From Verrucomicrobiota bacterium (GTDB lineage Bacteria; Verrucomicrobiota; Verrucomicrobiia; Opitutales; Opitutaceae): a stretch of 44,994 nt of DNA. Made by a program: the position numbers and the translations under genes. Below, in pieces: positions 2,967 through 33,504 of this stretch. Positions within the stretch are counted from its first letter, which is position 1. Each line of letters starts with the position of its first letter. The notes under the pieces were generated by a model. That model worked only from the letters and a program-made list of their open reading frames with translations. It was not told the origin of the DNA and did no database searches. The stretch covers positions 1-44,994 of the forward strand of contig JANYJB010000110.1 in NCBI GenBank assembly GCA_025361935.1, read 5' to 3'.

Positions 2967-7604
<4,638 letters not shown>

Positions 7605-26985: not shown

Positions 26986-27339
26986 TTATTTGGTAAGCGA
27001 TTCGAGGTATTTCCAAAACTTGGAGTGCTGCTCCACCAATTGGCTTTCGGAAACAGGCAACTTATTACGCAACAAAAAGTCCTCCAATGAGTTACTGTGT
27101 AAAATATAGACCACATGTAATGATTCCTGACCTTTGGTTTCAAAGTAGAACCGATGGCCGCCGCAACGCAGCCGATAAAGCGACTGACCGGCACGGTTGA
27201 AATGGCCCAGGGGCTCGCGAGGGTGTTCCAGATCGGCTGGCTTCAGGGAAGTGATCGGTTCGACAACTTCCAACTGCACAAGCTTATCGAGCTTGTTGAG
27301 CTCCAGCATGCTTTGTTCGGAAAATGTAACCTGATACAT
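26986..27339 (-). CDS. Orphan RelE/ParE-superfamily-like protein
   Basis: A 117-residue protein whose first 80 residues resemble the RelE/ParE toxin fold. It has MYQVTFSEQSMLELNKLDK (helical start), a Pro/Gly middle, then SLYRLRCGGHRFYFETKG and SLHVVYILHSNS, matching the strand pattern and the basic Arg/Tyr-rich core of the superfamily. A charged C-terminal extension of about 30 residues follows. No antitoxin-type gene lies next to it on either side. It probably forms an operon with pssA, whose ATG starts 8 bp after its stop. It may therefore be a housekeeping member of the fold rather than a toxin. A longer in-frame start at 27390 exists but adds no conserved sequence. Confidence 0.65.
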   Translation of the reverse strand: MYQVTFSEQSMLELNKLDKLVQLEVVEPITSLKPADLEHPREPLGHFNRAGQSLYRLRCGGHRFYFETKGQESLHVVYILHSNSLEDFLLRNKLPVSESQLVEQHSKFWKYLESLTK

Positions 27340-27470
27340 GGTGAAGTGACGTTGGTGAAAAAGAGGGGCTTGCACGTTTGCGTCAAACAAGGCGCACGCG
27401 GGTCCATGAAGCGGTTAATTTCTACCCACCGTCAGCCACTCAGCAACGCTATTCGTTTTGAATCGCGGGT

Positions 27471-27539: not shown

Positions 27540-29867
27540 ATGCGGTCGCGCCGGCTCATGATTATTTGGTTTGGGATGGGGTGCCTTCTGGCGCCGGGCC
27601 CACTCCGCGCCGCCGATCACGCGCCCATCGTTTTGGACATTCCCGTATTGGTTGCGGGCTATGGGAGTGTTTTTTTCGAGGAGACGGCGCGGGAGTTTGA
27701 AGCTCTGCGGCCCGGCGTGAAAGTGCATCTGCGCGGCAATCCACGCATCAACGACCAGGTGCGCATCCGCGTCATGGCGGGCGATTATCCCGACGCGACG
27801 GACGCCGTGCTGCTCTATCCCAACCTCATCAACGCCGGGCGCATTCTGGATCTCGTGCCTTACCTCGACGGGCCGAATTGGGAAGGCGACGCCCGCTGGC
27901 GCGATACGTTTCTCCCCGGCGTGCTCGACCGCTGGTGCGCGACGCCCGGTGAAAACAAAACCAAGGGAGGCATCTACGGCCTGCCTTTCGCCCACGCCGT
28001 CTGGACGATTTTCTACGACAAAAAACGCTTCCGCGAAAACGGCTGGGAAGTTCCGCGCACGTGGGACGAGTTCTTCGCACTTTGTGACTGCATCGAAGCA
28101 AAAGGCGTTGCCCCGGTCGCGCTGCCTGGGGTGGTCATGCGCTACGGCGATGCCTTCTTGCGGGCCGCGCACTACAATCTCGTCGGCACCGACGGCTACC
28201 GCGCCTACAATGAACTCGCGCCCGGCACGCGCACCGATCCCCGTTTCATCCGCGCGGCCGAGGTCACGCAGCGTCTGACGACCCGTTACCTTATCAAAGG
28301 ATGGGAGGGCATGACGCACACCGCCGCGCAGCTTGCGTTCATCAACGGGCAGGCGGCGATGACGGTTTCAGCGTCATGGTTCGTGAACGAGATGCGCGGC
28401 AAGTTGCCCGCCGGTTTCGAGCTGGGTGCGATGAATTTTCCCGTTTTTCCGGACGGCATCGCCGATCCGGCGACGCTCCAGACGCAGAGCGCCTACTACT
28501 TCTTATTCGCCACCGGCGATCCGGCGCGGGAGCGCGCGGCGGTGGATTTTTTCCGTTATCTCACGTCGAGAACCAGCGCCCGGCGTTTCGCGCGCACGGT
28601 GGATTCCCCCGTCGCCCTCCGCGCGGTGGTGCCTGCGGATTATTCGGCCGCGATGCGCGACACCGCCGAGTTGTTGTCGCGCAGCCCCGGTTCGTTCGAC
28701 GCGGCGCCGCCGGCCTCGGCCGCGCAGCTCGCGCTCATCAACCAGGCCATGACGGATGCACGCTATCGGCTTATGACGGGCCGTATTACGCCGCAAGAAT
28801 TTGGACAAAAACTCGAAGCCGCCGCCGCGGCCGAACGCGCGCGCCGTGCAGATCCTGATCGTGTGGAAAACAACCACGGATTTGCGACGGCGGGCCTCTT
28901 GTTGGCGCTGGCCGGACTTGCGGGCTGGCTGGGATGGTCTTGGACGCGCATGCGAGGGGAGAGATCCGCAACGCCCGCCCCCGAACATCTTGGGCGGCTG
29001 CGGGGCGGCTTTGCCGCTGGCTTCGTCGGACCGGCGCTTGCGTTGTTTAGCGCGCTGGTGATTTTGCCGGGGATCGTGTCTTTTGCGTGGGCTTTTACGC
29101 GTTGGGACGGGCTGGGTGCGCAGACGTGGGCCGGACTTTTCAATTTCAAGTGGCTGCTGCTGGAGAGCGATGTGTTCTGGTTCGCGCTCAAAAACAACCT
29201 CTACCTCATGCTCGTGCCCGCGTTGGTCGTGGTGCCGGCGGCGTTGTTTTTTGCGACGCTGATCCATCGTGGAGTCTGGGGGGCGGGCGTGTTTCGCGTG
29301 GTGTTTTTGTTCCCCAACATGCTTGGCGGGATTGCCGCGACGCTGCTGTGGATGAGCGCCTACGCGCCGCACGGCGGCCTGGTTAACACTGCTCTCGCGA
29401 AACTTGGACTCACCGGTTTCGATGGCTTTGCGTGGCTGTCGCAGGGGCATCTCTATGGCGCGCTCATCCCGATCTATCTATGGATGGCGTGCGGCTTTAA
29501 TCTCGTGCTCTACCTCGCGGCGATGGAGGGCATCCCTGCCGATTTCTACGAGGCGGCGGAACTCGAAGGCGCGTCGAAGGCACGGCAGTTTTTCACGATC
29601 ACGCTGCCGCTTATCCGCGAAGTGCTGGTGATCTCGGCGGTGTTTCTGGTGATTGGCGGCCTGAACGCTTTTGAAATGGTCTGGCTGCTCACGTCACAGG
29701 ATCCGGCGAGCGGATCGCACACGCTGAGCACGCTGATGGTCTCGACGATGTTCCAGGAGTTCCAGATCGGCCGCGCGACCGCGATCGCGGTGGTGATGTT
29801 CGTGCTCGTGCTGACGGGCAGCGCCGCCGTGATGCGCGCGCTGAAACGCGAAGCCGTGGAAATGTGA
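27540..29867 (+). CDS. Carbohydrate ABC transporter: solute-binding protein fused to MalF-type permease
   Basis: A 775-residue natural fusion. Residues 1-24 look like a signal peptide (RSRR, hydrophobic core, LRA-AD). About 25-435 is an extracellular sugar-binding protein of the CUT1 type, with YGLPFAHAVWTIFYDK, FINGQAAMTVSASWF and SAYYFLFATGDP. An added membrane helix (about 445-468, GLLLALAGLAGWLGW) and a short basic linker lead to a MalF-like permease (about 490-775). This has six predicted helices and the EAA loop EAAELEGASKARQFFTITLP, which docks the ATPase. The extra helix makes the topology work: binding domain in the periplasm, linker in the cytoplasm. The second permease follows 13 bp later; no ATPase gene is nearby. 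The transported sugar is unknown. Confidence 0.9.
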   Translation: MRSRRLMIIWFGMGCLLAPGPLRAADHAPIVLDIPVLVAGYGSVFFEETAREFEALRPGVKVHLRGNPRINDQVRIRVMAGDYPDATDAVLLYPNLINAGRILDLVPYLDGPNWEGDARWRDTFLPGVLDRWCATPGENKTKGGIYGLPFAHAVWTIFYDKKRFRENGWEVPRTWDEFFALCDCIEAKGVAPVALPGVVMRYGDAFLRAAHYNLVGTDGYRAYNELAPGTRTDPRFIRAAEVTQRLTTRYLIKGWEGMTHTAAQLAFINGQAAMTVSASWFVNEMRGKLPAGFELGAMNFPVFPDGIADPATLQTQSAYYFLFATGDPARERAAVDFFRYLTSRTSARRFARTVDSPVALRAVVPADYSAAMRDTAELLSRSPGSFDAAPPASAAQLALINQAMTDARYRLMTGRITPQEFGQKLEAAAAAERARRADPDRVENNHGFATAGLLLALAGLAGWLGWSWTRMRGERSATPAPEHLGRLRGGFAAGFVGPALALFSALVILPGIVSFAWAFTRWDGLGAQTWAGLFNFKWLLLESDVFWFALKNNLYLMLVPALVVVPAALFFATLIHRGVWGAGVFRVVFLFPNMLGGIAATLLWMSAYAPHGGLVNTALAKLGLTGFDGFAWLSQGHLYGALIPIYLWMACGFNLVLYLAAMEGIPADFYEAAELEGASKARQFFTITLPLIREVLVISAVFLVIGGLNAFEMVWLLTSQDPASGSHTLSTLMVSTMFQEFQIGRATAIAVVMFVLVLTGSAAVMRALKREAVEM

Positions 29868-29880
29868 CCGACGCGCGCCC

Positions 29881-30720
29881 ATGAAACTCTCCCGCATCCT
29901 CATCTTCTCGATTCTCGCGGGCTACCTCGCGTGGGTGGCGTTTCCGATGGCGTGGGTGGCTTATTCCTCCCTCAAGACCGACGAGGCGATCTTTCGCGAG
30001 GCGTTCGCGCTGCCGGCGGCTGGGGATTTGCAGACCGACAACTATGCGCGGGCTTGGCGCGAGGCGAAGTTCGGCGACTATTTCGTCAACTCGGTCGTGG
30101 TCACGGTGTCATCGGTCACGCTCATCGTGCTGCTCGGCTCGATGGCGGCGTATGCGTTGGCGCGTTTTTATCATCCGCTGGGCAAGGCGGCGTTCTGGCT
30201 GTTTCTCGCGGGGCTGATGATTCCGGTGCAGCTCTCGATCGTGCCGCTTTTCTTCGAGCTGCGCGCGCTTGGGTTGCTCAATTCGCGGCTCGGGCTGGTT
30301 TTGGTTTACACGTCCAACGGCCTGCCTTTCGCGATTTTTATTCTGTCAGGGTTTTTCAAGGCGCTGCCGCGATCGCTCTACGAGGCGGCGGTGGTGGATG
30401 GCTGCACGGAGACCGGAGCCTTTTGGCGCGTGATGCTGCCGCTGGCGAAGCCGGGCTTGGTGACGGTGGCGATCTTCCAGTTCATTGGTATTTGGAAGGA
30501 ATATTTCTTTGCCTTCATGTTCACGAGCGGTGACGCAGGGACGGGGGCGCGCACACTGCCGCTGGGGTTGGCGAATCTCTCCATCGCCTCACAGTATCGA
30601 AGCGACTATGGCATGCTGTTCGCCGGACTGGTGATGGTGACGGTGCCGATTCTGGTGATATTCATCGCGCTTCAAAAACACCTCGTGAAGGGCGTGACGG
30701 CGGGTGCCGTCAAAGGGTAA
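29881..30720 (+). CDS. Carbohydrate ABC transporter permease, MalG type
   Basis: A 279-residue inner-membrane permease of the CUT1 sugar importer family. It has six predicted helices, starting with ILAGYLAWVAFPMAWVAYSSLK. The EAA loop reads EAAVVDGCTETGAFWRVMLP, and the C-terminus ends LQKHLVKGVTAGAVKG, the usual MalG-type ending. It lies 13 bp after the binding-protein/permease fusion and must pair with that protein's permease half. The ATP-hydrolysing subunits are not encoded here; a shared MalK/MsmX-type ATPase elsewhere is the likely supplier. Confidence 0.93.
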   Translation: MKLSRILIFSILAGYLAWVAFPMAWVAYSSLKTDEAIFREAFALPAAGDLQTDNYARAWREAKFGDYFVNSVVVTVSSVTLIVLLGSMAAYALARFYHPLGKAAFWLFLAGLMIPVQLSIVPLFFELRALGLLNSRLGLVLVYTSNGLPFAIFILSGFFKALPRSLYEAAVVDGCTETGAFWRVMLPLAKPGLVTVAIFQFIGIWKEYFFAFMFTSGDAGTGARTLPLGLANLSIASQYRSDYGMLFAGLVMVTVPILVIFIALQKHLVKGVTAGAVKG

Positions 30721-30743: not shown

Positions 30744-30992
30744 TCAGGTAAACGCGGGCGGCATCCGGTCGCTTTCCGGCGACGCGGCGTCGAGCTGGGC
30801 GATGATCGCTCGAGCGGCCTCGGCGTTTTCCTGGGTTACCTGGATGCGGATGCCGCCGATGGCAAAAATCAGATACGGCGCGGTCTGGGCGGTGTTTTCA
30901 TCGGGGATAAAGACCGCGATGCCGCTGTCGTTGAGCACGGATTTCACCAGTTGGACGCTGGCCGAATCATTACAGGTAGCGACCGTGATCAT
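30744..30992 (-). CDS. DUF2007-type small protein
   Basis: An 82-residue protein from ATG 30992 (96 residues if ATG 31034 is used) resembling DUF2007. It starts MITVATCNDSASVQLVKSVL and continues SGIAVFIPDENT, IRIQVTQENAEAARAII. The pattern is a ferredoxin-like alpha/beta unit that occurs in many bacteria, sometimes described as a putative signal-transducing domain. It has no signal peptide or membrane helix. It is convergent with the ABC permease gene (23 bp apart) and divergent from the PAS-phosphatase gene. Function is not known. Confidence 0.6.
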   Translation of the reverse strand: MITVATCNDSASVQLVKSVLNDSGIAVFIPDENTAQTAPYLIFAIGGIRIQVTQENAEAARAIIAQLDAASPESDRMPPAFT

Positions 30993-31104
30993 GGCCAGAG
31001 TCTGTGCATCAGGCTTGAAATGGCCAGAAAGCATATGGTCGGCCTGCGTGTTAAAGCTGGATTGCGTGGAGGGCAGGGTTTAGACCCATGCTCCCTTGTC
31101 TCCC

Positions 31105-33504
31105 ATGTCTTCGTCCGAAGAACCTCCCCTGCCCATGAATGCGTTTCCCTTGAGCGGGAAGGGGATGAATTACGAGGATTGGCTCAGGCGCGGGGTTGAC
31201 GAGCATGCCATCGTTGCGGTGACGGATGCACAGGGCGTGATCACTTACGCCAACGACCGTTTCTGCAAAATATCCGGGTATTCGCGCGCGGAACTGATCG
31301 GTCAGACACATCGAATCTTGAAGTCGGGTGCGCATCCGCCGGGCTTCTTCGCCGACATGTGGCACACCATCAGTTCCGGTGGCGTCTGGCACGGCACGAT
31401 TTGCAACCGCGCGAAAAGCGGAGATTTCTACTGGGTCGAAAGCACGATCGTTCCTTTGATGGGAGCCGACGGCAAACCCACCGGCTACCTAGCGCTGCGC
31501 ACCGACATCACCGCGCTTAAGCTTGCCGAAGAGTCGACCGCGCGTCTCGCCCACGACTACGCCGAACAGGCCGCGCAACTGCGCGATGCCCGCAGCCAGC
31601 TTCAGATTTTCTTCGACCAAGGCCCGATCGGCCTGAGCTGGCGGGAAATGGATGCCAACGGACTCCCCGGATTCAATAATCTCAATCGGCGGTTTTGCGA
31701 AATCATTGGGCTTACCGCCGAAGAGGCGCGCGACATCGAAAACGTCCGGCGCATCACCCATCCCGAGGACTGGGCGCGGCAGAAGGAGCTCTCCCGTGAG
31801 CTCTACGAAGGCCGGCGCGATCGCTTCACCCTCCAGAAACGTTACATCCAGAAGGACGGCCGTGTCGTCTGGGCCGAGCTGACGGTCGTCGTGGTGCGCG
31901 ATGCATCCGGCCGTGTCACCCATCACTTTGCCATGTTGGAGGACGTGACCGCTCGCCACGCCGCCGAGCAGGAACTCAAACGCAGCGAAGCCCGCTGGCG
32001 CACCTATGTGCAGACCGCGAGCGAGATACTCTACGCCATCACGCCCGAGGGCCGGTTCAAATTCGTCTCCGATGCGTGGACCTCGAAGCTTGGCCACCAG
32101 ATCAACGACGTCATCGGCCGGCCCTACACCGAGTTTGTTCATCCCGACGACCTGTCCCTCTACGTCGCCTTCGTAAACGAGACCCTTGAAAAAGGCACCA
32201 ACGTGGGCGGCATCGAGTATCGCGTGCGCCACAGCGACGGGCGCTGGATATGGCACGCCTCGACGGGTTCGGCCTACACGGATCGAGACGGCCGCCGCGC
32301 CTATTTCGGCGTGGGGCGCGACATCAGCATCCGCCGCAAGGCCCAGGACGAGCTGCGCGCCGCGCTCGCCAAGCGCGAGGAACTCGAGCAGATCATCAAC
32401 CGCTCGCCGTCCGTCGTCGTTCTTTGGAAATCCGAGGCCAATCAATGGCCGGTCGAATTCGTTTCCCAGAGCATCCGCCAGTTCGGCTACCAGCCCGAGG
32501 ATTTCACCGGCCGCCGCCTCAGCTTCCGCAGCATCACCCATCCCGACGATCGCGAACGCGTCGAGGCCGAGGTCAACGCCCACGCCGCCACCGGCCACCA
32601 CGAATACAATCAGGAATACCGCGTCGTGTGTGCCGACGGTTCTGTTCGTTGGGTGGACGACCACACCGTCGTCCGTTTCGATGCCGCCGGAAAGGTCACC
32701 CATCACGAGGGTCTCATCACCGACATCACGGTCCGCAAGGATGCCGAAGACCGTGAACGCGACCTGCGCGAACGTGATCTGCGCCTGGCCGGCGAAGTGC
32801 AGCACCACCTGCGCCCGCATGTTTTCCCCGATATCGGCGAGGTTGAGATAGAAGCGCTTTCCCAGCCGTCCACCCATCTCGGCGGCGATTACTACGACGT
32901 GCTGGCGGTGGATAAACGCCGCTGGGGATTTGTCATCGCGGACGTCGCTGGCAAGGGGCCTGCCGCCGCCCTGATGATGGCCGCATGCCGCGCCACTTTG
33001 CGTCTCTGCGCCGTGGGCGAGCCGAGCGCCGCCGTCGTGGCCAAGCGCGTCAATCGTGCGCTCCATGGCGACATGCCTCGCGGCATGTTCATCTCTCTTT
33101 TCTACGGCATTCTTGATCTCGACACCAATCGCTTCAGCTACGTCCGCGCCGGTCACGAGCCCGCCTTGTTGCTGCGCGCGGGCGGAGGCGCCCCCGAGCT
33201 GTTGGCGGCGGGCGGCCTCGCGCTCGGGTTTGATGACGGGGCGGTTTTTGACGAAACGCTGGAAGAGGGCGAAGTGGAGTTGCGCTCCGGCGACCTGCTG
33301 GCGCTTTACACCGACGGCATCACCGAGGCCGCCAACGCCGCCGGCGACGAATTCGGCCGCGATCGTTTCGCCCAGGCGCTCGCGCGCCACGACCAGACAT
33401 CGCTCGCCAAGATGGTGGACAAGCTCGACCGCTACCTGCGGCAGTTCTCCGCCCTCGCGCAGCGCAACGATGATCGCACGCTGCTGCTCGTCCGGCCCCG
33501 CTGA
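31105..33504 (+). CDS. Four-PAS-domain SpoIIE/RsbU-type serine phosphatase
   Basis: A cytoplasmic protein of about 799 residues with no membrane helix. Four PAS domains follow in series: roughly 30-135 (VTDAQGVITYANDRF), 165-285 (GFNNLNRRFCEI), 300-410 (EGRFKFVSDAW) and 430-545 (VEFVSQSIRQFGY), several with the PAC-type ending DIT. A PP2C/SpoIIE phosphatase domain occupies about 558-797, with LGGDYYDVLAVD, VIADVAGKGPAAALMM and LYTDGITEA carrying the metal-binding aspartates. Such enzymes dephosphorylate anti-anti-sigma factors in partner-switching control. No STAS or kinase partner gene lies nearby. The ATG at 31105 is preferred; a TTG at 31096 is also possible. Confidence 0.92.
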   Translation: MSSSEEPPLPMNAFPLSGKGMNYEDWLRRGVDEHAIVAVTDAQGVITYANDRFCKISGYSRAELIGQTHRILKSGAHPPGFFADMWHTISSGGVWHGTICNRAKSGDFYWVESTIVPLMGADGKPTGYLALRTDITALKLAEESTARLAHDYAEQAAQLRDARSQLQIFFDQGPIGLSWREMDANGLPGFNNLNRRFCEIIGLTAEEARDIENVRRITHPEDWARQKELSRELYEGRRDRFTLQKRYIQKDGRVVWAELTVVVVRDASGRVTHHFAMLEDVTARHAAEQELKRSEARWRTYVQTASEILYAITPEGRFKFVSDAWTSKLGHQINDVIGRPYTEFVHPDDLSLYVAFVNETLEKGTNVGGIEYRVRHSDGRWIWHASTGSAYTDRDGRRAYFGVGRDISIRRKAQDELRAALAKREELEQIINRSPSVVVLWKSEANQWPVEFVSQSIRQFGYQPEDFTGRRLSFRSITHPDDRERVEAEVNAHAATGHHEYNQEYRVVCADGSVRWVDDHTVVRFDAAGKVTHHEGLITDITVRKDAEDRERDLRERDLRLAGEVQHHLRPHVFPDIGEVEIEALSQPSTHLGGDYYDVLAVDKRRWGFVIADVAGKGPAAALMMAACRATLRLCAVGEPSAAVVAKRVNRALHGDMPRGMFISLFYGILDLDTNRFSYVRAGHEPALLLRAGGGAPELLAAGGLALGFDDGAVFDETLEEGEVELRSGDLLALYTDGITEAANAAGDEFGRDRFAQALARHDQTSLAKMVDKLDRYLRQFSALAQRNDDRTLLLVRPR

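Follow-up and report, generated by a model that had tools for sequence, protein, structure and literature searches.

The window, by which we mean the whole 44,994-nucleotide stretch analysed here (contig JANYJB010000110.1), carries on its forward strand a gene that joins a sugar-binding protein (SBP), an extra transmembrane helix and a MalF-type permease in a single polypeptide (27540–29867, stop codon included). The frame opens with an ATG and runs uninterrupted for 775 residues, and its orthologues likewise keep the two halves in one frame. Pfam places SBP_bac_1 on residues 47–344 (E 6e-25) and BPD_transp_1 on residues 565–759 (E 6e-11), both above the curated cut-offs. Among the NCBIfam models, carbohydrate receptors of the NgcE-like kind match the first half best, with a score below the equivalog cut-off, and the second half is closest to UgpA/GlcT and other sugar-type permeases, with MalF further down the list. 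The nearest solved receptor is an oligosaccharide receptor from Bifidobacterium (9h0n, E 5e-28), and the nearest solved permeases are SugA (8ja7, E 9e-17) and MalF (2r6g, E 1.3e-9). Hydropathy resolves an N-terminal signal-type segment (6–24), an extra helix (447–465) and permease segments from residue 495 onward. An AlphaFold2 model built on a 60-row alignment (mean pLDDT 87.8, pTM 0.84) follows the same order, with receptor elements at 30–437, a helix at 447–474, a low-confidence loop at 475–488 and the permease from 489. The earlier note on this DNA had read a signal peptide, a binding protein, an extra helix and a MalF permease with its EAA loop into this one frame, and reading frame, Pfam, hydropathy and model all agree with it.

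At the N-terminus, a basic n-region followed by the hydrophobic stretch marks a Sec signal peptide (residues 1–25; 27540–27614), which is likely cut after LRA. No lipobox was seen in this N-terminus, and those of the orthologues are similar in kind without being conserved in sequence. The sugar-binding domain (residues 28–437; 27621–28850) is defined by the SBP_bac_1 match and by the folds that the model resembles best, which are binding proteins for fucosylated lacto-N-biose, chitin oligomers, xylo-oligosaccharides and raffinose. Past a polar stretch that differs between species (430–446), hydropathy and model place the extra helix that would tether the receptor (residues 447–474; 28878–28961); it is hydrophobic in all 60 aligned orthologues, the best 19-residue mean being at least 1.28, with a median of 1.96. 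A basic linker (residues 475–488; 28962–29003), predicted to be cytoplasmic and modelled as a low-confidence loop, leads into the permease. Across the 60 orthologues this linker spans 20–77 residues, and the net charge of the region corresponding to 470–492 has a median of +4 (range +1 to +8). Hydropathy, linker charge and model are together consistent with the topology proposed before, in which the receptor would lie outside and the permease N-terminus inside. The permease domain (residues 489–775; 29004–29864) is of the MalF/UgpA/SugA type by Pfam, NCBIfam and the SugA and MalF structures, and its EAA coupling loop, read from the sequence, is YEAAELEGASKARQFFTITLPL (residues 670–691; 29547–29612). 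Y670, G677 and P690 are invariant in the 60 orthologues, and E671, A672 and A673 are each kept in at least 90% of them.

Downstream on the same strand lies a MalG/UgpE-type partner of 279 residues (29881–30720), identified by its reading frame, Pfam and NCBIfam, with an EAA loop at about 30382–30444. It has no insertion, and the earlier reading of a MalF-fused receptor with an ordinary MalG partner holds up. Of 70 loci, 68 have a MalG homologue next to the fusion. Upstream, on the opposite strand, pssA-like and dnaN genes recur, with the dnaN cluster found at 44 loci. No sugar-use gene cluster was found among these neighbours, and an attempt to derive the substrate from them failed, since pssA, dnaN and unrelated genes point to no sugar. 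Also in the window are a minus-strand DUF2007 putative signal-transducing protein (30744–31034), situated between the transporter and an 802-residue protein farther downstream that combines four PAS stretches with a SpoIIE-type phosphatase domain (31096–33504), and a minus-strand frame of 134 residues between pssA and the fusion (26986–27390) with a RelE/ParE-type resemblance by eye.

Conservation of the fusion and its presumed partner subunits

When 56 relatives were searched with the fusion protein, copies that were full-length or broken by contig ends turned up in most members of the genus and in roughly half of those sampled from the family; scanning genome contigs yielded 79 loci, the majority in Opitutaceae. 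Profile searches found both halves in 100 frames of the orthologous group, a count that includes some genes fetched twice. The earlier note had suggested such a search for the SBP-TM-MalF order and had named two separate proteins in all close relatives as the outcome that would speak against a fusion; relatives instead encode the same fusion. Among 60 aligned copies, identity to the window's protein is 43–89% over the whole length, and the single frame is kept. Cultured carriers include Geminisphaera colitermitum TAV2, Opitutaceae EW11 and IMCC26134, the last with an interrupted copy. Between close relatives, pN/pS is 0.33–0.39 at the junction, 0.12–0.25 in the receptor and 0.05–0.14 in the permease, so that the junction changes more quickly than the two domains it connects but stays under coding constraint.

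Two outlying copies were observed in passing. In the complete genome of IMCC26134 (CP011265.1; L094:10977–12207), the permease half of the orthologous fusion is broken by an insertion that bears an IS3-like transposase frame (L094:11017–11985, minus strand; IS type by eye). A fusion 43–44% identical to the window's lies on a contig labelled Myxococcales (L103:8929–11172), a placement that would be due either to transfer from one phylum to another or to an error in the labelling or binning of the contig.

The window's genome (G000) is about 88% complete, so that absences from it are provisional, and another receptor or ATPase may have escaped the assembly. One CUT1 permease pair is present; the other BPD_transp_1 proteins are of the Opp/Dpp or nitrate/sulfonate/Sao type where checked, and the remainder, on contigs C49 and C94, lie in frames with two domains. 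The fusion is the only protein with an SBP_bac_1 match above the curated cut-off, and a match below it, on C94, is weakly like phosphonate or polyamine receptors. The sole OB_MalK protein is a MalK/UgpC-type ATPase on contig C72 (L153:3448–4746), which scores 477 bits against the UgpC-subfamily cut-off of 432. Of 32 relatives, 12 of the 13 that bear the fusion have OB_MalK, against 7 of the 19 that lack the fusion (Fisher p 0.003, uncorrected for relatedness), and one relative, G006, has the fusion with its OB_MalK match absent. We infer that the C72 ATPase pairs with the fusion and MalG from an unlinked gene. By eye, the neighbours of this ATPase gene are a GntR/LacI-like regulator, a right-handed beta-helix protein, an alpha-L-fucosidase and a sialate esterase, with no permeases among them.

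The single tethered receptor put forward in the earlier note is strengthened as a prediction, because no other SBP_bac_1 protein above the cut-off and no second CUT1 pair were found in a genome of this completeness. Since there is also a single OB_MalK protein, the simplest complex would contain two MalK subunits besides a single fusion and a single MalG. The earlier note also proposed that such tethering may be of benefit at low substrate.

Proposed working and alternative explanations

We consider it very probable that the locus encodes a type I ABC importer of the CUT1 (MalFGK2-like) kind whose MalF subunit permanently carries the receptor as one of its domains and whose MalK is supplied from elsewhere in the genome. 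The course that we infer, covering topology, composition and stoichiometry of the complex, substrate class and kinetics, would begin with the signal peptide directing export of the sugar-binding domain, after which helix 447–474 would cross from outside to inside and anchor the receptor at the membrane, while the basic linker would remain inside and lead to the permease N-terminus. The fusion would then join the MalG encoded next to it and a pair of C72 ATPase subunits in a complex with one tethered receptor. Once this receptor has bound an oligosaccharide, a substrate class suggested by the nearest solved receptors (lacto-N-biose, chitin oligomers, raffinose), it would dock on its own MalF–MalG pair at high local concentration and deliver the sugar via the normal alternating-access cycle. 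The predicted mechanism is well supported by anatomy.

Before any of this, the frame itself might be an artefact, in which an assembly or sequencing error merged two ordinary genes through a lost stop codon or a frameshift. The source assembly is indeed fragmented (115 contigs), and in one relative from another family of the class (G489) receptor and permease fall into two frames. The same single frame, however, recurs in orthologues from dozens of independent assemblies and from cultured isolates, on which ground we rejected an artefact, leaving it a negligible chance; the fusion is confirmed as real, conserved and natural. As for the G489 copy (L220, reverse strand, about 3626–3850; G489:C78), its receptor and permease frames overlap, the tether helix sits in the SBP frame, and base-level inspection found no ATG, GTG or TTG ahead of the first helix of the MalF frame. 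It was rejected as a true split orthologue on these grounds, and the likeliest reading is a fusion whose linker contains a frame change.

With the fusion accepted, one may still ask whether the receptor stays attached. A periplasmic protease could free it from a polypeptide made whole, yielding a soluble, MalE-like protein, and the polar, variable residues 430–446 ahead of the helix would offer a place for such a cut; yet a tether helix retained in 60 of 60 orthologues and followed by a positive linker would be needless if the receptor were normally released, and we hold cleavage to be improbable. Rather less probable still is that the tethered domain acts as a sensor or regulator in a complex that is not a canonical importer. 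The housekeeping neighbours pssA and dnaN, in place of a linked sugar-catabolic cluster, would fit such a role, whereas the strong conservation of the MalF half (the lowest pN/pS range above), its intact EAA loop, the conserved MalG partner and the co-occurrence of MalK with the fusion all argue against it.

Comparison with known importers

In CUT1 systems the receptor is usually a separate periplasmic or lipid-anchored protein, a usual rather than a defining trait, and it is this trait that the window and its orthologues depart from by fusing the receptor to MalF. In other respects the system resembles MalEFGK2 and UgpBAEC of E. coli and LpqY-SugABC of mycobacteria: it has an SBP_bac_1-type sugar receptor, adjacent BPD_transp_1 permeases of the MalF and MalG types with EAA loops, and one copy in the genome of a MalK/UgpC-type ATPase with an OB domain as its presumed partner. 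It is unlike all three in that receptor and MalF form one polypeptide via the extra helix and in that the ATPase gene is unlinked.

Receptor–permease fusions are established in GlnPQ and OpuA, and the window's system shares with these the covalent link between receptor and transmembrane domain. GlnPQ and OpuA, however, belong to amino acid or osmolyte families, whereas the best NCBIfam matches of the window's permease are of the sugar type. By these family tests the fusion is a CUT1 member, one that would share the mode of working of the tethered-receptor importers while falling outside their families. The order of domains differs as well, the receptor following the permease in OpuA and preceding it in the window. 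ArtRQP of B. subtilis is by its name a member of an amino-acid transporter family, in contrast to the CUT1 fusion described here. The OpuA complex has two receptor domains, attached through an anchoring helix and an 11-residue linker (PMC11065425), whereas in the window's system one of two different permeases carries the receptor. A 2021 review mentions fused-receptor importers, citing the OpuA work (PMC8276074), and a 2024 survey, in the excerpted part, describes ArtRQP as unique among the type I importers of B. subtilis in having its binding protein fused to one permease and mentions no CUT1 fusion (PMC11466899). The Mycoplasma-type spermidine/putrescine permease/substrate-binding protein (NF043073) is likewise one polypeptide of the BPD_transp_1 superfamily; it differs from the window's fusion in being a polyamine system and in belonging to another family. 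The open-licence literature yielded no account of a natural SBP-MalF (CUT1) fusion, and we provisionally regard this arrangement as undescribed.

The maltose transporter, a textbook case among ABC importers, works with a free receptor, and it has long been asked to what extent transport is limited by the abundance of the receptor and by its docking. With a single receptor built in, a natural CUT1 importer would be a 1:1 system that has no receptor pool and would allow docking kinetics, basal ATPase activity and affinity to be measured.

Further receptor–MalF fusions in Verrucomicrobiota

A profile search of 388 genomes, followed by inspection of the loci, found further SBP-MalF fusions in the phylum, mostly of 800–1000 residues and in the order SBP-helix-MalF. 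The permease tree recovers as clades the window's group (support 100), a second group made up of L141, L154-L163, L165 and L168 (moderate support, 91) and a third made up of L034/L205, L166, L167, L169-L171, L192-L200, L207, L210 and L211 (support 100). A common origin of all these fusions was rejected on this quick tree with long branches (p-AU 0.0001). The tree requires five changes between the fused and split states, and under it, as an estimate, such fusions appear to have arisen at least three times in the phylum, with L130 and L208 as possible additional cases. Three frames of fusion-like length (L209:3605-5968, L164:4315-6354 and L185:3859-5868) have no SBP in frame and were counted as split. 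Conservation across the family and several origins within the phylum go beyond what the earlier note had envisaged, and repeated origin within one phylum suggests a selective reason, for which fused and split relatives permit a direct comparison.

The other fusions (L154-L171, L192-L200, L205-L211) share the order of the window's and differ from it in their separate branches of the permease tree and in a large periplasmic insertion in the MalG partner. In the second and third groups this partner has one helix, then 330–480 extra residues in the first periplasmic loop and then the usual permease, as on the minus strand at L154:2418-4241, L155:1281-3005 and L205:2259-4070 and on the plus strand at L207:6678-8585, L211:4612-6486 and L166:2633-4822. 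We tentatively suggest, giving it somewhat less than an even chance, that receptor–MalF tethering evolved repeatedly and that in at least two lineages the large MalG insertions form a docking cradle for the tethered receptor. If so, Verrucomicrobiota would possess a whole class of CUT1 importers that are self-contained, with a receptor that stays on the transporter throughout. The second-group loop (L154) has no Pfam match. The third-group loop (L205, L207, L210, L196, L211) matches a short part of the GH42 model, a segment that by eye seems repeated within the loop, and because only this short, seemingly repeated part is matched, the loop is not a full hydrolase.
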